From contig JAIXSO010000018.1 in assembly GCA_027484685.1 (NCBI GenBank), positions 1 through 64,000 on the forward strand: a stretch of 64,000 nucleotides of DNA. Reading direction: 5' to 3'. This DNA comes from Bacteroidota bacterium. Lineage in GTDB: Bacteria > Bacteroidota > Bacteroidia > UKL13-3. The stretch's first letter is position 1. Each line of letters starts with the position of its first letter. A program made the translations under genes and the position numbers. Below are positions 1,723 through 28,866 of the stretch, in pieces. The notes beneath the pieces were generated by a model. It worked only from the letters and a program-made list of their open reading frames with translations. It did no database searches and was not told the DNA's origin.

Positions 1723-1738
1723 TTGGAATCGTAAAGTG

Positions 1739-1861
1739 CATTAGGGATAGAAGTGGAAATCCTTTTTTTTGTATCGGTTTGTGCTGTTGGAAAAAAGATT
1801 GGAACGGATAGCCCGACCGCAAGTGTGGTGGGTTTGTTGAGGGAATTGCGGTAATGCCCAA
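1739..1861 (+). repeat. Structured intergenic element (probable Bacteroidota dispersed repeat)
   Basis: Non-coding stretch between prfC and the peroxiredoxin gene. It contains alternating blocks of the style TTAGGGATAGAAGTGGAAATCC, GATTGGAACGGATAGCCCG and GCGGTAATGCCC, with short self-complementary pieces such as CGACCGCAAGTGTGGTGGG. From memory, very similar blocks occur between genes in other Bacteroidota, but I cannot name a family. It may be a structured 3' element or a mobile repeat. Confidence 0.4.
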
Positions 1862-17527: not shown

Positions 17528-18550
17528 TTACTCTGCTTTTTCTTCATAGTGTTCCATGGCAGCCTTTAATCGTTTGGCAATTCTGCTTTTAAAATGCCTT
17601 GGACCTAATACTTTTATGCTTTCGCCAAAGCCTAGAATCTCACGTTCCAATTCAAAATTTAACACCAAATCTAGCCTGATGATAATGCCTGTTTCATCCT
17701 CTTTTACCAATGTTTGCGAGGGATGAATGGGTTTGGTTAACACATAAGGCGCGTTTGCACTATTTACATGTAAAATAATTTTGATGGCTCTATCTCTATC
17801 AGTTTTTGTAACACCTAGTAAATCATTAAAATACCTTTCAAAATCTATACCTTCGTAAGGCACAAACTTTTCGTTTGGTAGTTCTTGAAATTCAATTATT
17901 CTATCTAAAGCCAATGTTATGAGTACATTTCCTTTTTTAGGTTTGGCAATTAAAAACCAACGGTTGCGGTATTCTTTTAATAAATAAGGGAAATAAATTT
18001 GATGTTGCGCTGCTTTTGCTTTGAACGATTTGTATTCAATCAATAAAGCTTTTTGGTTTAAAATAGCTTGGTATAAAGGATTGATATGTTCAATTCCTTT
18101 TAGTAAATGATTGGTTTCAAACTGAATGCAATTGCGGCTACCCTTGGTCGATTTATTGATATTGTTCTCCAATTTGGTAATCATATCGCTCATTTCATCA
18201 AAATAATTAAAACCATTTAGGTGCTTCAGCACGCCAACAATTTCTTTCATTTTTTCAACATCAGCATTGTTAATAGGAGTTTTGGTAATGCTAAATGTAT
18301 TGTCTTCGTAGCTATAATATTTTTTATCGGTAACTATAATGGGCGCATTGTAACCCAACTTATCACTGCGCATCAATTGAATATCAGCTTGAATGGTACG
18401 CTTTGAAATGCCAGTAGAAATGCCTTCGTATTCGTACAAAGCATTCGATACTTTTTCAATCAAATCATCTAAAGTCCATTTTCTGAATCTGTTTTGTAAA
18501 CATTCGTCAATGGTTTTATACCTGATTAAGGCCAATTTGTTAATAGACAT
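17528..18550 (-). CDS. WYL-domain transcriptional regulator of the RNA-repair island
   Basis: 340 residues. The N-terminal winged helix (about residues 20-75, TLDDLIEKVSNAL ... SKRTIQADIQLMRSDKLGY) is followed by a WYL domain (KALLIEYKSFKAKAAQHQIY, FPYLLKEYRNRWFLIAKPK) and a C-terminal WCX-like part ending near GPRHFKSRIAKRLKAAMEHY. Known WYL proteins bind nucleic-acid or nucleotide ligands and control defence and DNA/RNA damage loci. It points away from the RNA array and shares the intergenic region with it, the usual position of a local regulator. A TGCGCAA site sits at its own -33 position. Confidence 0.88.
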   Translation of the reverse strand: MSINKLALIRYKTIDECLQNRFRKWTLDDLIEKVSNALYEYEGISTGISKRTIQADIQLMRSDKLGYNAPIIVTDKKYYSYEDNTFSITKTPINNADVEKMKEIVGVLKHLNGFNYFDEMSDMITKLENNINKSTKGSRNCIQFETNHLLKGIEHINPLYQAILNQKALLIEYKSFKAKAAQHQIYFPYLLKEYRNRWFLIAKPKKGNVLITLALDRIIEFQELPNEKFVPYEGIDFERYFNDLLGVTKTDRDRAIKIILHVNSANAPYVLTKPIHPSQTLVKEDETGIIIRLDLVLNFELEREILGFGESIKVLGPRHFKSRIAKRLKAAMEHYEEKAE

Positions 18551-18599: not shown

Positions 18600-18702
18600 T
18601 CAAAATGCGTAGTTTGTTTTAGTTGAAAATATTTTACATTTTTATTGAATTTAATAAAATGATAATCAAGTAATTGTATTGTAAATTTATTTAAGCTTTT
18701 TA

Positions 18703-18749
18703 TGCGCAAGTTAGCTGCGCAGAAGCTGCGCCACCTTTGCCACATCAAA
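18703..18749 (+). promoter_or_regulatory. Conserved 47-base promoter/operator element of the RNA array
   Basis: Begins TGCGCAAGTTAGCTGC and ends CACCTTTGCCACATCAAA. It aligns without gaps to 27231-27277, upstream of the second rtcB: 30 of 47 bases are identical, with blocks TGCGCAA, AGCTGC, CTTTGCCA and ATCAAA. CAccTTTG is a weak variant of the -7 box, as expected for an activator-dependent promoter. AGCTGCGC occurs twice (18713, 18724), 11 bases apart, about one helical turn. Confidence 0.65.
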
Positions 18750-18788
18750 TAACAACAAACAATAAAACAGTTCTTTATATAAAAATAT

Positions 18789-18854
18789 TTAGCAGGTCAA
18801 ATAAAAGTTACTTCTATTCCACTCCAAATGAAAACTTTTGTAATTACCTGTTAA
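18789..18854 (+). ncRNA. Y-RNA-like element 1
   Basis: The outer stem TTAGCAGGT (18789-18797) pairs with ACCTGTTAA (18846-18854), with one G-U pair. An internal loop of CAAAT against GTAATT leads to the inner stem AAAAGTT (18803-18809) / AACTTTT (18833-18839) and a 23-base loop starting ACTTC. The GGU-CAA / AAUU-ACC internal loop recurs in the next three elements. This end-paired stem with an asymmetric loop resembles the Ro-binding stem of Y RNAs (GGUCCGA); that likeness is inference. It ends three bases before the tRNA-like element. Confidence 0.7.
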
Positions 18855-18857
18855 TTG

Positions 18858-18976
18858 GGGGCAGTAGCTCAGTGGTAGAGCAATGAAAAAGTTTTTATAA
18901 TTACCTTTTTAAAGGTCAAAAGAAACTTACTTCTTAATCCAAGTCATATACGTTGGTTCGAATCCAACCTGCCCCA
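18858..18976 (+). ncRNA. tRNA-bodied RNA with a Y-like module in place of the anticodon arm
   Basis: Acceptor GGGGCAG (18858-18864) pairs fully with CTGCCCC (18969-18975), with A as discriminator. Bases TA, D-arm GCTC-AGTGGTA-GAGC (18867-18881), a short ATGA/TCAT stem (18883-18886/18944-18947), a 4-base variable loop, and T-arm GTTGG-TTCGAAT-CCAAC (18952-18968) are all canonical. Instead of an anticodon loop, 57 bases form AAGTTT/AAACTT, an internal loop ATAATT against CAAA, and ACCTTT/AAAGGT capped by a tiny loop. This is the array module turned inside out. CCA is not encoded. RNase P and 3' processing at the tRNA ends would also free elements 1 and 3. Total 119 bases, with no usable anticodon. 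Confidence 0.8.
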
Positions 18977-18979
18977 CAA

Positions 18980-19060
18980 AATAATGGTCAAGTTTAGCTT
19001 ACTTAATTTGGTTACGCAGGTTCGAATCCTGTCTTTGATAGCCTAACAATTGCCATTATT
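18980..19060 (+). ncRNA. Y-RNA-like element 3 with T-arm mimic
   Basis: AATAATGG (18980-18987) pairs perfectly with CCATTATT (19053-19060). A U-G pair, the loop CAA against AATT and a short GTT(T)AG/CTAAC stem follow. The interior holds a T-arm, GCAGG-TTCGAAT-CCTGT (19016-19032), and a GG-containing D-loop-like AATTTGGTTA. This matches the known plan of bacterial YrlA-type RNAs: a terminal Ro-binding stem joined to a tRNA-like module. Covariation with element 2 is visible (GGU/ACC becomes GGU/GCC). It is three bases after the tRNA-like element and three before element 4. Confidence 0.7.
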
Positions 19061-19063
19061 CAT

Positions 19064-19124
19064 TAGGTCAAGTATTTCTTACTTCAACACTCTTTTAGGT
19101 AGAACTCAGAAATACAATTATCTA
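19064..19124 (+). ncRNA. Y-RNA-like element 4 in the leader of the TerD-like gene
   Basis: The outer stem TAGGT (19064-19068) pairs with ATCTA (19120-19124), with one G-U pair. The loop CAA against AATT is followed by a perfect 8-bp inner stem, GTATTTCT (19072-19079) / AGAAATAC (19108-19115). The loop begins TTACTTC, as in the other elements. It ends 18 bases before the start codon at 19143, so it may act both as an RNA and as a cis-acting leader for that gene. Confidence 0.65.
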
Positions 19125-19142
19125 TTTTATAAAAATAAAAAA

Positions 19143-21383
19143 ATGAAAAACGAATTATTAAAAATTGCCTTGCGTCAAAACGCTATCTTTATTCCGCAAC
19201 ATTTAATTGCGCATAAAGAGCCAAAAATCAGTGAATTGTCATTAGTTATGGTGCAAAGATTGGCGGAGCTTGGTTTTACTTTTTCTGAAGAATTATTGCA
19301 CTCAATAAATGCGGTAAACACAGGTTACAAGTATCAAATTTTAGAGTTCTTAAAGGATGTAATGGGTATTGATAAAAACTGGACTCCATTAAGAAAAAAC
19401 TTTGGTGAAACCACCAACGAAACTTTGTTTGATCATGTAAAAACATTTTTGGAAAATACTTTTAAAACGCATGATAACATGGTGTTAGCTTGTGGTCATA
19501 TCATTCCGCAAAATACTTTTAACTTATCGGTTTACAATGGTTGCCCTATTTGTGGCTTGCCAATGAGTTTTGGAGCAATTGAACAAATGGGTAATGGCAG
19601 TAAATTAAAAGTTCTTGATTTATGGACTGAAGATAACTTAAAAGCATTGATGGTTGATTTATTACAATCGAAAACTGCTTTAGATGCTACTCAAGTTGAT
19701 TCGTTAAAACTATTGTTAACTGAGTTTGGTTTGCCAAATGTTGAAATAACCATGAAGGAAACCAACATGCTTGCAATAAATTATTTGGTAAAAAGTAAAC
19801 AAGCTGAAAAAGCCAATGCTTACTTTAATAATCCAAATGATATTTTGCGATTTTTATGGTATCAAAAAACAGGCTTTTTGCAAATAATTGAACCTAAAAC
19901 CATATTGAAAAGGGCAGCTAGCAATAATTTTCATTTTAACACGTATGCAAGCCATAGTGCTAAAAGCAAATTAGATAAAAAAGCTGCTTTAAAGTTAAAA
20001 TATGGAAGAACTGAATGTTTGGCAGTTGCTACTTGGTTAAACAATTTAAATATGTCGGCCGAAAATGCTTGCGAAATAATGCATCCAAAAAGAGGCATGT
20101 GGGTTAGGTTTATTCGTGCTTTGCGTTTAGCAGAATACAGCAAACGCAAAGGTTTTGAAAAGTTAGCTGCTTTGCTTGATGTGTTTTATAATCGTCATTA
20201 CACAGTATGGAGCGGAAGTGTAAATCATTACCGTTTAAGAAGCGATGCTGAAAAAACATTTGCTTTGTTAAAACAACGTCCTGGATTATTTGCTCGTTCT
20301 TTATTTGCCAATATGTTATGGTTTGGTGCTACCGAAACCATCAATGAATTTAAGCAAGTATTAGATAAAGTGCCAGCAAGATTGGTATTTACGCTAAACA
20401 TGTATGCTCAAAATTATTTTGATTATACGGTTAGTCGTTCGGTAAAACCTTTAGGTGGAATTAGCAAACGCATTGCTGCTAATAAATTATTAACTCTATA
20501 CACCAAAGAGCAATTACATGAAATGAAATTGCAAGTAGAAGAGTTGTGTTTTGAAGCCATGAAAAAACGTTTTGCTGCTTTAAACAACGATAATAAAACC
20601 ATATATATTGATGAAGCATTGTTTAACATGCCAGTAAGTATTGGCGATAGAAGTGAAACTTTGCAAGATTTGCCAGTGGCATTAATGGGTACTAGATTTT
20701 TGGTAGAAGGAAATACGGTAAGGTTGTTTATGCAATGGGGTAAAGATTTGCCTGCTCAACATTTGGATATGGATTTAAGTTGTGTAATTGCTTATGAAAA
20801 TAAAATGGAACGTTGTTCATACAGCAATTTAATTGCTACAGGCTGTAAGCATAGTGGTGATATTATACATATTCCAAATAAAATTGGTACAGCAGAATAC
20901 ATTGAAATGAATTTGGATGTATTGAAAAAAGCCCAAGCAAAATATGTTACATTTACTTGTAATGCATATAGCAATGGAAGTATTGCACCTAATTTGGTAA
21001 TTGGTTGGATGAATAGTAAATATCCAATGCATATTTCAAATGCTACCGGTGTAGCCTACGATCCAAGCTGTGTTCAGCATCAAGTAAGAGTAACTAAAAG
21101 TGCTACTAAAGGTTTAGTTTTTGGTGTATTGGATGTAGAAAAAAACCAAATTATTTGGTTAGAAATGGCATTTGCAGGACAAGTGGTTCAAGGTTTAGAT
21201 TTTAACAATGTAAGTGCATTGATAGCTAAATTAGGTGCTAAGTTAAATATTGGTGCTTTGTTAATGTTAAAAGCCGAAGCGCAAGGTTTAACTTTGGTAA
21301 CTGAAAAACAAAATGCCGATGAAATATACGACATTCAATGGGCAATGAATGCAGCTGCAGTTACCCAATTGTTTGTTGATTAG
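19143..21383 (+). CDS. Zinc-finger (RING-like) plus TerD-like protein of the RNA-repair island
   Basis: 746 residues from the ATG at 19143; an upstream in-frame TTG at 19050 would be translated through RNA element 4 and is rejected. Near residues 117-137, ACGH and CPIC form a zinc-finger/RING-like motif. A long helical middle follows (RGMWVRFIRALRLAEYSKRK, RPGLFARSLFANMLWFG). The C-terminal part has a TerD-like domain (HLDMDLSCVIAYEN, SGDIIHIP, YIEMNLDVLKKAQAKYV). The order resembles the MXAN_6230/SCO0854 RING-domain family, by recall. No vWA/MIDAS is seen, so it is not a classical Ro60. It probably partners the RNA array just upstream. Confidence 0.7.
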   Translation: MKNELLKIALRQNAIFIPQHLIAHKEPKISELSLVMVQRLAELGFTFSEELLHSINAVNTGYKYQILEFLKDVMGIDKNWTPLRKNFGETTNETLFDHVKTFLENTFKTHDNMVLACGHIIPQNTFNLSVYNGCPICGLPMSFGAIEQMGNGSKLKVLDLWTEDNLKALMVDLLQSKTALDATQVDSLKLLLTEFGLPNVEITMKETNMLAINYLVKSKQAEKANAYFNNPNDILRFLWYQKTGFLQIIEPKTILKRAASNNFHFNTYASHSAKSKLDKKAALKLKYGRTECLAVATWLNNLNMSAENACEIMHPKRGMWVRFIRALRLAEYSKRKGFEKLAALLDVFYNRHYTVWSGSVNHYRLRSDAEKTFALLKQRPGLFARSLFANMLWFGATETINEFKQVLDKVPARLVFTLNMYAQNYFDYTVSRSVKPLGGISKRIAANKLLTLYTKEQLHEMKLQVEELCFEAMKKRFAALNNDNKTIYIDEALFNMPVSIGDRSETLQDLPVALMGTRFLVEGNTVRLFMQWGKDLPAQHLDMDLSCVIAYENKMERCSYSNLIATGCKHSGDIIHIPNKIGTAEYIEMNLDVLKKAQAKYVTFTCNAYSNGSIAPNLVIGWMNSKYPMHISNATGVAYDPSCVQHQVRVTKSATKGLVFGVLDVEKNQIIWLEMAFAGQVVQGLDFNNVSALIAKLGAKLNIGALLMLKAEAQGLTLVTEKQNADEIYDIQWAMNAAAVTQLFVD

Positions 21384-21748: not shown

Positions 21749-22498
21749 ATGAAAACTGGTATAAAAAATAAATTGCTTGAAATAGAAAAAAGCAATCAAA
21801 TAAAAATACTATATGCCAATGAATCAGGCAGCAGGGCATGGGGTTTTCCCTCGCCTGATAGTGATTATGATGTAAGGTTTATATATGTAAAACCAATGGA
21901 GTCTTATTTATCTATAAAGAATGAAAATGATTTTATGAGTTTTCCAATCAATGATGAGTTAGATGTATATGGTTGGGATTTGAAAAAGGTTTTGCAATTG
22001 GTTTATAAATCAAATACTACTCCTTTTGAATGGTTGCAATCGCCTATAGTTTATATGGAGCAAAATGGTTTCAAAGAAAACTTGTTTGCGTTGTGCCAAA
22101 ATTATTTTAATGCCAAAGGCAATGTGCATCATTATGTAGGAATAGCTAAAAACGCTTTCAGCGGTTTGAATGATGACAATGAGATAAAGATAAAAAAGTT
22201 GTTTTACGTTTTAAGATCATTGCTTTCAGCAAAATGGTGTGTAGAGAAAAATCAAATAGCACCCATGACAATACAGAAGTTGATAACTGTTTTGCCAATG
22301 CAATTTCATGATATGATAAATGAGTTGATAATAATAAAATCAACTGCTAAAGAAGCTGATTTAGTAAAGCTAGATAAGGCTTTAAAAGATTTTATAGTAA
22401 ATGAATTAGAAAAATGTAGTTTGGCTGCTGATGCTAAAAGCAAGCCAATATTTGATGTAAATTTATTGAATCAATTTTTTAAGGAAACAATCAAATGA
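21749..22498 (+). CDS. YcgL-type (COG3541) nucleotidyltransferase 1
   Basis: 249 residues. The polymerase-beta-fold signature GSRAWGFPSPDSDYDVRFIY (about residues 27-46) gives the GS motif and the two metal aspartates; a third acidic residue is probably in NDELDVYGWDL. The substrate is not known for this family; genes of this type recur in bacterial RNA-repair loci, where RNA end modification has been proposed. The stop overlaps the next start (ATGATG/TGA), so the two are translationally coupled. Confidence 0.82.
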   Translation: MKTGIKNKLLEIEKSNQIKILYANESGSRAWGFPSPDSDYDVRFIYVKPMESYLSIKNENDFMSFPINDELDVYGWDLKKVLQLVYKSNTTPFEWLQSPIVYMEQNGFKENLFALCQNYFNAKGNVHHYVGIAKNAFSGLNDDNEIKIKKLFYVLRSLLSAKWCVEKNQIAPMTIQKLITVLPMQFHDMINELIIIKSTAKEADLVKLDKALKDFIVNELEKCSLAADAKSKPIFDVNLLNQFFKETIK

Positions 22499-23556
22499 TG
22501 ACTATAGATGAACTGAAAGAAAATAACTTGATACTATTTGAATGTATAAGTGGTAGTAATGCTTTTGGGTTAAATACGCCAAGTTCTGATACGGATATAA
22601 AAGGCGTTTTTTACTTGCCTAAAAATCAATTTTACGGATTAAACTATACTCCTCAAATAAACAACGAAACCAACGATATAGTGTATTATGAGCTTGGTCG
22701 TTATGTTGATTTGTTAATGAAAAACAATCCGAATATGTTGGAATTATTGTCAACTCCAGCAGACTGTGTTTTGTATAAACACCCCATAATGGATTATTTA
22801 ACAATAGACATGTTTTTATCGAAACAATGTAAGGAAACATTTGCAGGTTATGCCATAGCACAAATAAAAAAGGCTAAAGGATTGAACAAAAAAATAATGA
22901 ATCCATTGCCTAAGGAAAAGAAATCTGTGTTAGATTTTTGTTTTATATTAGATGGATATAATACCATTTCAGCTCAGGAGTGGCTTGAAAGCAATAACTT
23001 GGTGCAACAAAATTGTGGTTTAATAAATATGCCACATACCAAAGGAATGTATGCTTTGTTTTACGATAAATTAGGCGATAAAAACTATAAAGGAATTGTT
23101 CAAAACGAACTTTCAAACACAGTTTCATTATCTTCAATACCAAAAGGAGAAAAGGAATTGGCTTATTTGTTTTTCAACTTAGATAGTTATTCTTCGTATT
23201 GCAAAGATTATATTCAATATTGGGATTGGGTAAAAAAGCGAAATGAGGAACGATATCAAAATAACATAAAAAATACGTTTGATTACGATGCTAAAAACAT
23301 GATGCACACCATCAGATTGCTACAAGTGGCTTATGAAATATTAGCTGATGGAAAATTAAATGTAAGGCGAAATAACAGAGCAGAAATGCTAGATATAAAA
23401 GCTGGTAAATATACTTATGATGAAATATTGAGTATGTCGGATAAGCTAATAGAACAGATAGAAAGTGCGTATTTAACAAGCTCTTTACCTGATGAAATTG
23501 ATAAATTAGCTATCGAAAATACTTTGGTAAAAATGCGAGAGGAATTGTATTCATAA
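22495..23556 (+). CDS. YcgL-type (COG3541) nucleotidyltransferase 2
   Basis: 353 residues with ISGSNAFGLNTPSSDTDIKG (about residues 18-37), again the GS...DxD active site, and a longer helical C-terminal part (ENTLVKMREELYS at the end). It starts at 22495 or 22498, overlapping the first nucleotidyltransferase gene. The pair is probably one unit acting on the same RNA substrate, perhaps with different subunit roles; this is inference. A strong terminator follows. Confidence 0.82.
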   Translation: MMTIDELKENNLILFECISGSNAFGLNTPSSDTDIKGVFYLPKNQFYGLNYTPQINNETNDIVYYELGRYVDLLMKNNPNMLELLSTPADCVLYKHPIMDYLTIDMFLSKQCKETFAGYAIAQIKKAKGLNKKIMNPLPKEKKSVLDFCFILDGYNTISAQEWLESNNLVQQNCGLINMPHTKGMYALFYDKLGDKNYKGIVQNELSNTVSLSSIPKGEKELAYLFFNLDSYSSYCKDYIQYWDWVKKRNEERYQNNIKNTFDYDAKNMMHTIRLLQVAYEILADGKLNVRRNNRAEMLDIKAGKYTYDEILSMSDKLIEQIESAYLTSSLPDEIDKLAIENTLVKMREELYS

Positions 23557-24419: not shown

Positions 24420-24453
24420 AACAAAAGGCTGCCCTCAGGCAGCCTTTTGTTTT
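24420..24453. terminator. Bidirectional terminator after prfH
   Basis: ACAAAAGGCTGCC pairs perfectly with GGCAGCCTTTTGT around CTCA (24421-24450). It serves the minus-strand rtcB-prfH operon. Near-identical to 23570-23598. Confidence 0.85.
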
Positions 24454-25069
24454 ACACCAATGTTTCGTTAAAAGTTTTTACAGGATTCCCTCTTTCCAAT
24501 TGATGGTGTTTGATCCATTTGTCTTGAACCAGTTTTTTGGCTTTTTCTACTTCATCTAACATCAGTTTGTCTTTTAGTTTTTCTAAAGCCAATTTTTTGT
24601 TTAGCAATTGCGAGCGTTCTTGGTTAGCAGTTACAAATATTCCTGTTGGCAAATGAATAGCTCTAACCGCTGTTTCTACCTTGTTTACGTTTTGTCCGCC
24701 AGGCCCGCCACTGCGCATGGTTTGGTAACTGATATCGCTTTCTTTTATTTTCATCTCTTTGCTTATATCAAAACAATCAATGCCCACAAACCAGTTTTTA
24801 CGCCTGTGAAATTTTCTATATGGACTTTGAGCTATCCATAAAATGCTGCCAGTCCATTGTTCACAAAAGTTGCTGATATTATTTCCACTTAACAGCAATG
24901 TTACTGAAAAATAACAACCTTTCAATTGGCCTTTTATACTATCAATAATAGTTACTTCAATGCTTTTATTTTTGGCTTCAGCCATAAGTTTTTCAACTAC
25001 TTTGGCTACTGCTCTTTCGCATTCCTCGGGCCCTTTGCCCGAGGTTATTTGCATTATTTTTTTCTCCAT
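24452..25069 (-). CDS. prfH: Peptide chain release factor H homologue
   Basis: 205 residues; a short release-factor-like protein with the hydrolysis motif [17 protein letters not shown] (GGQ at about 124-126) but without the codon-reading domain of RF1/RF2. PrfH is known to pair with an RtcB paralogue and has been reported to act on ribosomes whose 16S decoding region is cut, releasing the peptide so that RtcB can seal the RNA. The start lies one base after the rtcB stop, so the two are one operon. A terminator follows immediately. Confidence 0.9.
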
Positions 25070-25070
25070 T

Positions 25071-26465
25071 TTACTCTTTATTCATTCTTACTATTTTAGG
25101 ATAAAATATCCCTTCTACATTTACCAAATCGCTTTGATTGCGCATTACTTGTTCTATGTCTTTATACGCATTTGGAGCTTCTTCTGTGCTGCCACCAATT
25201 AAAGTTACACCATGTTCAATCAACAACTTTTTCATGCCCGAAACGGTATTCATTTGTTTGGCTTTGCTGCGACTCATGGCTCTTCCTGCTCCATGAGAAG
25301 CGGAGTTGATAGCGGCTTCATTGCCTTTGCCACTTACCAAATATCCTGGATGAATCATGCTACCGGGAATGATGCCTAGTTCACCTAATTTGGCAGGTGT
25401 TGCCCCTTTGCGGTGAACAATCATTTCCTCACAATCTACCATTTCTTTCCATGCAAAATTGTGGTGATTTTCTACTTTTATTATGGGTTTAAATCCAGTT
25501 TGTTTGGCTAAGTTTTTATGGATTACATCATGACAAGCTTTGGCATAATCGCCTGCTAAATTCATGGCTAACCAATATTCCATACCCAATTCAGTGTTTA
25601 AATCTAACCAGGCTAATTGTTTGGCATGATTAGGAAGTTTGCATACATCCATGGCTTTTTGAAAGTAATGCATGGCAATATTTGAACCCAAACCTCTGGA
25701 GCCCGAATGTGATAACAACGCCACATATTTACCTGCTTTTACGTTCAAATTATTTTGCTCTTGCAATTCAATAATGCCCCATTCTACAAAGTGATTACCA
25801 CTGCCTGAGCTACCTAATTGCCTGGCTGCTTTGCCTTGCAATTGTTTAATAAAAGGTATTTCGTTAAACACTTGGCTATCCAAAATATCATGCGATTGTT
25901 TGGTTTCCAATCCGCCTTCCATTCCAAAATGTGTACCTTCTTTTAAAGCCATTTTGCATTGATAACTATATTGTGTCAAGGCTCGTTCATTGGCTTCAAA
26001 AATGGTCATAGCCATGCGACAACCAATATCTACGCCTATTCCGTAAGGTATCACTGCATTTTTAACAGCAAGCACGCCACCAATAGGTAAACCATAACCC
26101 GCATGTGCATCAGGCATCAATGCTCCTTTTGCAGTAATGGGTAAGCGTAAAGCTATGTCCATTTGCTGCTTGGCCGATGTTTCAATAAACTTGTTACCAA
26201 AGGTTTTTACAGGTTGTGGTTCACTTAATAAATCGTAAGCTGTAAAGTGTTTATCTTCCTTTTTGTCTAAAAATTGCAAAGCTATTTTGCTTAAAAATTC
26301 ATGTGTTTCATATTTTGTTGGGTTGTTTTTTATTTGGGTTAATAAATCAAGCGCCTCTTGTTTGCTTTGGTGCTTGTAATGTTTTGATAAAATAGTAATT
26401 GCCAAACTACGTGTTTGGTTATTGGTATATCCTATTTTGCTTAAATCTTTTGATCTAATATGCAT
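25071..26465 (-). CDS. rtcB: RNA ligase RtcB, prfH-linked paralogue
   Basis: 464 residues. GTP- and Mn-dependent ligase that joins 2',3'-cyclic phosphate and 5'-OH RNA ends. [12 protein letters not shown] (residues 119-130) and GVDIGCRM (Cys149) supply metal ligands; [25 protein letters not shown] and the C-terminal [10 protein letters not shown] active-site segment are intact. It lacks any intein. Upstream of prfH with one base between them. The second rtcB at 27445 runs in the opposite direction, back to back. The repair substrate of this copy is probably ribosomal RNA, by analogy. Confidence 0.95.
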
Positions 26466-27444: not shown

Positions 27445-28866
27445 ATGAATACACAAATTAACGGTAACGACTTAATAGAAATAGGTTACGAACAAGGTGA
27501 AATATTAGGATTGGCTTTAAGAGCTAACAGAAAAAGAACTGGCTATACACGCGATGAAATGATGATGCATTATAAAAATGTATTGGATAATGCAGCTGGA
27601 TATTTAGACCATAAAATATTTGGAAAATTAGCTACCGCCATTATTGAAAAAGCCAATTCGCCAATTGAAGAGACCATTACTTTGTTTGAAAATGCAAATG
27701 CTTACGCCATTTACGGAAAAGAAAATATTGAAGAAGGAGCCATCAAGCAAATGGATATTGCCATGAAATTACCTGTTACTGTGGCTGGTGCTTTGATGCC
27801 AGATGCGCATCAGGGATATGGGCTGCCAATAGGAGGAGTTTTGGCTACTAAAAATGCCATTATTCCTTATGGTGTAGGAGTTGATATAGGATGTAGAATG
27901 GCCTTAACTGTTTTTGATATTTCAGAAAATTATTTTTACCAAAATGCAGCTATTTTTAAAAATAAATTGATTGAAAATACCAAGTTTGGTGCTGGACATG
28001 GTTTTCATGGACGACATAAAGCAGATCATGAAGTGTTGGATAGAAGTGAATTTAATATTACCCCATTTATTAAAAACATGCACGATAAAGCTTACTCGCA
28101 ATTAGGAACTTCGGGTGGTGGAAACCACTTTGCGGAGTGGGGAATTATTGAGTTTGCAGAACGTGATGAAGCGTTGAATGTAAATGCTGGAAATTATTTG
28201 GCATTACTTACACATTCTGGTTCAAGAGGATTTGGAGCAACTATTGCAGGGCACTATACCCAGTTGGCTAAATCGTTATGTAAATTGCCACAAGAAGCAA
28301 GAAACTTAGCATACTTAGACTTGAATTCAGAAGCGGGACAAGAGTATTGGATTGCCATGAATTTGGCGGGAGATTACGCATCTGCTTGTCATGAAGTAAT
28401 TCATAACAAATTGGTAAAAGCGGTGGGGGGGGATATTTTAGCTAAAATTGAAAACCATCATAACTTCGCTTGGAAGGAAGTTTGGAATAATGAGGAAGTA
28501 ATTGTGCATAGAAAAGGAGCAACTCCAGCAGGAAAAGGAGTGATGGGAATTATTCCAGGCTCTATGACTGCGCCAGGATTTTTAGTGAGAGGTAAAGGTG
28601 ATACCAATGCCATTAACTCTGCATCGCATGGTGCTGGAAGGCAAATGAGTAGAACCAAAGCCATTCAAAATATTTCGCAAACCGATATGAAAACTATTTT
28701 AGAAGCTAACCAAGTTACTTTAATTGGTGCAGGATTAGATGAAGCCCCAATGGCATATAAAGACATCAATATGGTGATGAATTCGCAAAAAGATTTAGTG
28801 GATGTAGTTGCTAAATTTACTCCAAAAATTGTGCGTATGGCTGATGATGGAAGTAGAGAGGATTAG
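27445..28866 (+). CDS. rtcB: RNA ligase RtcB, second paralogue
   Basis: 473 residues. [12 protein letters not shown] (residues 120-131), GVDIGCRM (Cys150), [27 protein letters not shown] and [12 protein letters not shown] keep all RtcB active-site features. Clearly homologous to the prfH-linked copy but well diverged, so probably different in substrate. It has its own regulated promoter and structured leader. A G8 tract (28425-28432, in AVGGDIL) is unusual in this AT-rich DNA and could slip. No archease or rtcA gene is adjacent. Confidence 0.95.
   Translation: MNTQINGNDLIEIGYEQGEILGLALRANRKRTGYTRDEMMMHYKNVLDNAAGYLDHKIFGKLATAIIEKANSPIEETITLFENANAYAIYGKENIEEGAIKQMDIAMKLPVTVAGALMPDAHQGYGLPIGGVLATKNAIIPYGVGVDIGCRMALTVFDISENYFYQNAAIFKNKLIENTKFGAGHGFHGRHKADHEVLDRSEFNITPFIKNMHDKAYSQLGTSGGGNHFAEWGIIEFAERDEALNVNAGNYLALLTHSGSRGFGATIAGHYTQLAKSLCKLPQEARNLAYLDLNSEAGQEYWIAMNLAGDYASACHEVIHNKLVKAVGGDILAKIENHHNFAWKEVWNNEEVIVHRKGATPAGKGVMGIIPGSMTAPGFLVRGKGDTNAINSASHGAGRQMSRTKAIQNISQTDMKTILEANQVTLIGAGLDEAPMAYKDINMVMNSQKDLVDVVAKFTPKIVRMADDGSRED

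Follow-up and report, generated by a model that had tools for sequence, protein, structure and literature searches.

The window analysed here, a stretch of 64,000 nucleotides from a Bacteroidota genome, carries a short array of RNA modules upstream of the gene of a 746-aa protein, and one of these modules lies inside what looks like a tRNA (18858-18976). The question raised by this locus is what such an RNA is for, as its outline is that of a tRNA and its content that of its Y-RNA-like neighbours. The first-pass annotation had described a tRNA body whose anticodon arm was replaced by a Y-RNA-like module. The coordinates of the element, of its parts and of the surrounding genes are collected in Table 1.

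Table 1. Features of the array and its surroundings; positions are those of the window.
Feature	Position	Strand	Basis or remarks
Flavo-1 RNA	1736-1822	+	58.7 bits; also in one related locus (L035)
WYL/WCX regulator	17528..18550	-	Pfam
Palindrome TGCGCA-N7-TGCGCA, candidate operator	18703..18721	+	
CACCTTTG, candidate -7-type promoter box	18732..18739	+	
Y-like module 1, open form GGUCAA-N8-UACUUC ... N8'-AAUUACC	18795..18848	+	stem pairs 8/8; isolated fold z -1.40 only
tRNA-bodied element	18858..18976	+	acceptor, D and T arms, Rfam tRNA match, fold, covariation
Acceptor stem	18858-18864/18969-18975		7 bp
D arm	18867-18881		4 bp; A14 and G18G19 present
Anticodon stem	18883-18886/18943-18947		around the module
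Permuted module within the tRNA body	18889..18933	+	stem 18889-18896/18921-18928; tip pairs 18903-18905/18914-18916; then UACUUC
T arm	18952-18968		5 bp; loop TTCGAAT
Discriminator A73	18976		CCA absent from the DNA
Module 2, open form	18986..19054	+	T-arm-like hairpin GCAGG-TTCGAAT-CCTGT inside
Module 3, open form	19066..19122	+	stem pairs 8/8
746-aa protein: RING-like stretch, Ro60-like helical ring, TerD domain	19143..21383	+	
Two RlaP nucleotidyltransferases (21749-22498 and 22495-23556)	21749..23556	+	PF10127, 248.2 and 79.4 bits
PrfH release factor	24452-25069	-	TIGR03072, 246.3 bits
RtcB	25071-26465	-	PF01139, 249.3 bits
Second RtcB	27445..28866	+	PF01139, 275.1 bits

The Rfam tRNA model matched the whole element with 56.1 bits (E 2.1e-9), and the sequence, this match and the minimum-free-energy fold agree on the canonical acceptor, D and T arms that the first-pass annotation had noticed. 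The fold (-32.7 kcal/mol) forms these three arms and, where the anticodon would be, a hairpin; the mean of shuffled sequences was -20.2 kcal/mol, and none of the 200 shuffles matched it (z -4.27). The anticodon arm is expanded by the inserted module and not replaced, because the Rfam alignment hides 57 nt inside it and pairs 4 bp around them. The earlier description was thus right in that the insert is the same module as in the neighbouring elements, circularly permuted and with the ACC/GGU end as the hairpin tip, and wrong in that the arm was lost: a stem of 4-5 bp persists around the module and covaries in relatives. ARAGORN found no tRNA gene in the window, hence no finder call with an anticodon of the kind that marks a functional tRNA.

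The related loci used for comparison were collected through the gene at 19143-21383. Six of 395 genomes of the class, that of the window included, have homologs of this gene, and among 58 near relatives the genome of the window is the only one with the protein. The set comprised 89 loci as fetched, two of them fetched twice (L003 = L078; L002 = L019) and one (L001) being the window itself; 80 of the loci are the best 80 of 383 relatives in a larger genome collection, mostly Flavobacterium. In 84 of the 89 loci the strict scan showed a tRNA body with an insert upstream of the homologous gene, while the controls gave 0/89 in each of 10 rounds of shuffled upstream DNA and 0/89 within the first 1300 nt of the gene. 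The scan of the upstream DNA found no inserted body in three of the 89 loci (L005, L009 and L071), and the tRNA body of L003/L078, one locus fetched twice, is degenerate.

The three open modules of the array share a common plan. In each, GGUCAA is followed by one 8-nt stem strand and by UACUUC or a similar sequence; the opposite stem strand and AAUU(A/G)(C/U)C complete the module. Inside the tRNA body the module strands stand in the opposite order, so the GGU/ACC end becomes the tip. The fold of module 2 was no better than that of shuffles (z 0.41), and its stem has 6/8 pairs by eye. Across the 89 loci we counted 394 GGTC-type sites, of which 73, from 68 loci, paired as the permuted form in a tRNA body, 102 were plain open modules and 53 were open modules with the T-arm-like hairpin, with GG shortly 5' of the hairpin in 47 of these 53. 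At 166 of the 394 sites no partner strand was found by the strict rule. When foreign stems were used as a control, about 124 of the 394 sites still reached 7-8 pairs against 214 observed, because related loci share stems. Some loci have larger tRNA bodies of 150-233 nt with at least two GGTC-type sites inside.

The 91 bodies analysed for pairing are what was left of 131 listed spans after removal of ordinary tRNAs, spans devoid of a module, spans whose D or T arm was weak and a different tRNA-like RNA; the alignment A3 has 35 bodies, picked from the original list by span, motif and redundancy. The scanner had demanded acceptor, D and T pairing, so these helices are no test of themselves, and the module stem and the anticodon stem are the fair tests. 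RNAalifold recovered from the 35 aligned bodies the acceptor, the D arm, an 8+3-bp module and the T arm, with 27 pairs, 21 of which have two-sided changes; 97.8% of the cells were paired, the acceptor, D and T arms being the best-kept parts. The covariation value was 0.439, compared with a shuffled mean of 0.212 (0/500 as high) and 0.130 for the best slid version. The 8-bp stem of the module showed two-sided changes at 8/8 pairs with 92.9% of its cells paired, and the changes in the 3-bp tip were one-sided only. Likewise, the anticodon stem was paired 5/5 in 82 of the 91 bodies versus 8.5 of 91 with shuffled inserts; exchanging the inserts among related bodies left 41.2 of 91, a high figure because related loci share stems. 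Among 38 non-redundant bodies it was paired 5/5 in 32, 4/5 in five and 3/5 in one (null for 5/5: mean 5.5, maximum 11 in 200 sets), with several pair types at all five positions. The point of insertion varies, lying after nucleotide 2, 3, 4 or 5 of the 5' strand in 13, 6, 5 and 8 of the 32 bodies paired 5/5, respectively. CCA follows the discriminator in four of the 91 bodies. The element at 18858-18976 is therefore real and conserved; random substitutions destroying the pairs in relatives had been named beforehand as the outcome that would speak against it, and the opposite was observed, as both module and anticodon stem covary.

The distribution of the RNA was followed with the model R1, which gave 102.9 bits on the window element and at most 57.4 bits on ordinary tRNAs of the same genome. 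The best of the latter is tRNA-Lys, which resembles the window RNA in that its CCA is unencoded but differs from it in having no insert and another acceptor stem. In the 395 genomes, under stricter filters, eight places in seven genomes scored at least 67 bits among the matches listed; the other places listed had at most 59.9 bits, the level of ordinary tRNAs, and the match of 59.9 bits in G388 (171 nt) was rejected, as by eye it looks like neighbouring ordinary tRNAs. Five of the seven genomes (G000, G097, G149, G331 and G335) encode the RING/Ro60-like/TerD protein. The remaining two (G054 and G297) are without it and have a protein of a second family, 594-596 aa long and present in 3 of the 395 genomes (loci L110, L111 and L118). 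The tRNA bodies of these two genomes hold another module, with the stem ACUUU/AAAGU or ACUAUU/AAUAGU, the tip UCGC and a UUCCUAUA-type flank; it is formed in the predicted folds of the bodies at two of the three loci, and open versions adjoin. We can only infer that the second-family protein is Ro60/TerD-like, because it has no Pfam match above threshold and BLASTP relates it only weakly to the TerD part of the 746-aa protein (E 0.018). No relatives of it were found in the viral contigs or plasmids searched. In G227 and G350 a protein of one of the families is present and the R1 search found no tRNA-bodied RNA. Genome G149 has a good copy (75.2 bits, L109) on a contig other than that of the protein gene; an open module lies there too, and the reading frames listed for that locus include no Ro60-like one, so the tRNA-bodied RNA can exist away from the protein gene.

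The protein encoded directly downstream of the array was matched below the cut-offs by two family models, Prok-RING_4 of Pfam (25.1 bits, cut-off 27) and NF041916 of NCBIfam (residues 353-698, 133.5 bits, cut-off 600). The latter is the MXAN_6230/SCO0854 RING family, whose domain order the 746-aa protein shares by the alignment of these residues, although with this score the Bacteroidota members stay below the family cut-off; in the open literature searched we found no paper naming SCO0854 or MXAN_6230. The Pfam TROVE model (PF05731) matched neither the 746-aa protein by hmmscan nor anything else in its genome, and a canonical Ro60 as the neighbouring protein was rejected on this ground. The AlphaFold2 model of the whole protein (pLDDT 81.0) has a C-terminal domain that matches TerD (3ibz, Z 15.0, rmsd 2.5, 148 residues), whereas Ro60/TROVE proteins carry a C-terminal vWA domain. 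The whole model also matches three Ro entries (Z 4.9-6.1, 300-328 residues).

When residues 160-485 were modelled on their own (pLDDT 86.4), the top five PDB matches were all Ro60, from human, frog and Deinococcus, over 247-255 of the 326 residues: 9nep_A (Z 10.1, rmsd 4.5, 252 residues), 1yvp_A (9.8), 9nf8_A (9.2), 9nen (9.0) and 2nvo (8.7). The next match had Z 6.8 over 96 residues. Foldseek with the same residues listed no Ro60 among its 50 best and nothing below E 0.001. Helical repeats can commonly give a Z near 10, and the VIA-align and Foldseek lists leave other folds possible. The evidence for a Ro60-like fold of the central domain is thus good but not final, because the Foldseek top 50 contains no Ro60 and helical repeats give middling Z values by chance. 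At this strength, the structure match supports a Ro60-like partner for the RNA.

Close homologs of the 746-aa protein (44.0-55.9% identity) were found in three Bacteroidota plasmid records. A phage origin of the close copies was rejected: a pattern scan found no relative in viral contigs, and phage records contain only distant homologs, the best with 23.2-23.8% identity. The Variovorax homolog (L125 891-2543) adjoins rtcR. In the faecal phage MT835874 a tmRNA match of 94.2 bits (L128 808-1108) and tRNAs lie upstream of a Ro60/TerD-type homolog. Motifs of the UWMCUUCU type, searched on the coding strand by regular expression upstream of distant homologs, were absent in Variovorax, Niallia and Rhodococcus phage Weasels2, and one was present upstream of the Streptomyces homolog, counted without a null. 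Y-like arrays beside homologs in phages and Deinococcus may exist as well; they are only a lead, because this motif was counted without a null.

The relation of the window RNA to known Y RNAs is best seen in the Rfam model of YrlA (RF02553), in which the order of the helices is outer Y stem, T arm, closed acceptor, D arm and outer Y stem. If the ends of YrlA are joined and its acceptor is opened, the order becomes acceptor, D arm, anticodon stem, module, anticodon stem, T arm and acceptor, which is the window RNA. The claim of a Y-RNA-like module in a tRNA body with the topology of known bacterial Y RNAs reversed is borne out in this form, the helices being those of the YrlA model opened at the acceptor. 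In YrlA (RF02553; 6CU1; Salmonella rsr-yrlBA-rtcBA), as in the window RNA, D-, T- and acceptor-like arms are joined at the anticodon position to a protein-binding stem, which in the window RNA is predicted. According to the accessible parts of the literature, YrlA also has a Ro60-type partner and RtcB nearby, as at the window locus (PMC8394870, PMC7790460, PMC11472068), the crystal structure 6CU1 is circularly permuted relative to tRNA (PMC11472068), and the basal stem of YrlA tethers Rsr while its tRNA-like domain binds PNPase (reviewed in PMC8394870). The two RNAs differ in that YrlA ends in the Y stem and has a closed acceptor, whereas the window RNA ends at the acceptor and has a closed module tip, and in that the partner of YrlA is of the Pfam TROVE type, whereas the putative partner of the window RNA is RING/Ro60-like/TerD and not TROVE.

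None of the Rfam Y families, YrlA included, matched positions 18680-19145 of the window at E up to 10, and the gathering score of RF02553 (69) was not reached. The best YrlA match in the whole genome had 28.3 bits, and weak matches were also present in 13 of 14 control genomes. In Rhodobacter phage RcXuper, an element in the YrlA order lies upstream of a distant homolog of the protein (23.5% identity); it scores 40.7 bits (E 1.6e-7), which is below the gathering score of 69. In the same phage, matches of the tmRNA type (L131 1999-2554; RF01849 106 bits, RF04321 108 bits) stand directly 5' of a Y-like array with this element. Elements in the YrlA order were also seen near TROVE genes in 5 of 17 TROVE genomes (L137/L154, L142, L145, L148/L161 and L151), as regular-expression hits counted without a null, some of which may be paired ordinary tRNAs. 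The ROT/TROVE ribonucleoprotein (Burroughs and Aravind 2016, as cited in PMC7824862) shares with the window system a Ro-type protein, a tRNA-like RNA and RNA-repair genes. None of the accessible parts of the open literature searched describes a tRNA body whose anticodon arm contains a Y module, a coverage outside which Burroughs and Aravind 2016 falls.

The comparison also brought up another tRNA-like RNA, about 190-203 nt long and different from the first; it consists of an acceptor, a GCTTAAAAGG-AAAGC D arm, an insert of about 140 nt and a T arm. It lies upstream of the same array in four Flavobacterium loci (L015 4248-4437 (+), L018, L035 and L060) and is also found in two TROVE genomes (L135/L162 and L146/L153). 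Matches to it are present in 4 of 345 genomes (G222, G273, G074 and G297), with RtcB beside the copy in G222 and WYL beside that in G273, and no Rfam family reached its gathering score in the five loci scanned. We presume that it may be the tRNA-like molecule of Burroughs and Aravind 2016, whose abstract reportedly names Y RNAs and a novel tRNA-like molecule.

The DNA upstream of the array and the genes around it were compared in the same way. Of the 87 loci with a GGTCAA site, 68 have a CGCA-N6-8-TGCG palindrome no more than 200 nt upstream of such a site, and the density of this palindrome in all fetched DNA, these occurrences included, is 0.24 per kb. TTTG lies downstream of the palindrome in most of the loci listed and also in the window, and the CACCTTTG at 18732..18739 we take to be a -7-type promoter box of Bacteroidota. 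The WYL regulator would bind the palindrome at 18703..18721. Of the genes that make up the RNA-repair setting (RtcB, RlaP, PrfH and WYL in the window), WYL and RtcB recur in relatives: within about 5 kb of the 80 related loci, WYL homologs were found at 50, RtcB at 36, RlaP at no more than nine, and PrfH at none.

These results are, on balance, probably best explained if 18858-18976 is an un-permuted, tRNA-ended Y RNA of the Ro60-like RING/TerD protein, encoded in an RNA-repair island. This explanation is supported directly by the conserved structure, the permutation relation to YrlA, the association with the proteins and the repair genes, and the fold match of the protein. As the sequence suggests, the RNA and the neighbouring modules would be read from the operator-controlled promoter; RNase P and RNase Z would trim both ends as they do those of a tRNA, and CCA would be added. 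The hairpin in the anticodon arm would dock the RNA on the Ro60-like RING/TerD protein, as suggested by the array, the fold of the partner and the precedent of Ro60 and Y RNA. The tRNA body, facing outward, may then serve as a tether or as a competitor for a tRNA-handling enzyme.

Among the other explanations, it is unlikely that the tRNA body is mere processing punctuation, showing RNase P and RNase Z where to cut so that the Y-like modules are released from the mRNA of the protein gene. The bodies are indeed located between the modules and upstream of the gene, their acceptor, D and T arms are the best-kept parts, and in two loci the body ends only 15 nt (L085) or 19 nt (L006) 5' of the start of the matched reading frame. 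However, such a role leaves unexplained the conserved permuted module and the covarying anticodon stem inside the body, the bodies with several modules, and the body in the stand-alone array of L109.

The loop of the retained stem bears on two further explanations. In the class of bodies whose insert follows nucleotide 2, U33 is kept in 22, U36 in 18, A37 in 20 and A38 in 19 of 24 unique stem-loops, which are related and not independent rows, while positions 34-35 are variable; we take this to be the pattern of t6A-modified tRNAs. In the class of the window, with the insert after 4-5 nucleotides, U33 is present in only 8 of 19 unique rows. There is no conserved anticodon among the orthologs, as TTT, TCT and TAT are implied within the Flavobacterium bodies alone. 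Decoding by RNAs of this type is therefore unlikely, because the implied anticodons differ among close relatives and because U33 is kept in fewer than half of the unique rows in the class of the window.

The RNA could act as a bait or sensor for anticodon nucleases, with the stem-loop cleaved instead of the tRNAs of the cell, and with the tethered ribonucleoprotein, RtcB and RlaP repairing or reporting the damage. We regard this as quite unlikely: it would fit the repair genes of the island and the loop kept in the first class, but the loop is unconserved in the class of the window, and YrlA fragments were not found by Hughes et al. It is very unlikely that the element is a tRNA gene with an intron whose halves RtcB joins after excision of the module. 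Removing the insert from Flavobacterium-type bodies does leave a canonical anticodon arm (e.g., GGACA-CTTTTAA-TGTCC), near that of the tRNA-Lys of the window's genome, and the island has two RtcB genes; against this stand the implied anticodon, which varies between close relatives, the variable point of insertion and the lack of a canonical loop in the class of the window. Least credible of all is a relic, a tRNA gene invaded by a neighbouring module and now devoid of function, which would suit a patchy system whose protein occurs, among 58 near relatives, solely in the genome of the window, but is contradicted by the two-sided compensatory changes in module and anticodon stem and by inserted bodies at 84/89 loci.

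Taking the un-permuted Y RNA as the preferred explanation, we further propose, as a tentative possibility, that it belongs to a topological class of Y RNA absent from the searches made, with a true tRNA cloverleaf, tRNA ends, probably CCA, and, in its anticodon arm, the module on which a Ro60-like RING/TerD protein would dock. Two unrelated modules are found in tRNA bodies, each in the neighbourhood of a different protein family, so that selection would act on the tRNA body as such.

If this holds, the tethered tRNA would recruit enzymes that cut or mend tRNA, or would be attacked in place of tRNA, and YrlA would be a circularly permuted isomer of the same particle, both isomers occurring in systems with homologous proteins. 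The existence of matched topological isomers, one of the YrlA type and one un-permuted, with related proteins would allow tests of what the tRNA does in the Ro60-type particles of RNA-repair islands, whether it is a tether, a gate, a decoy or a damage sensor. Moreover, the Ro60-like RING/TerD protein becomes a candidate RNA-binding partner in Bacteroidota genomes that have no TROVE protein, such as the genome of the window itself.
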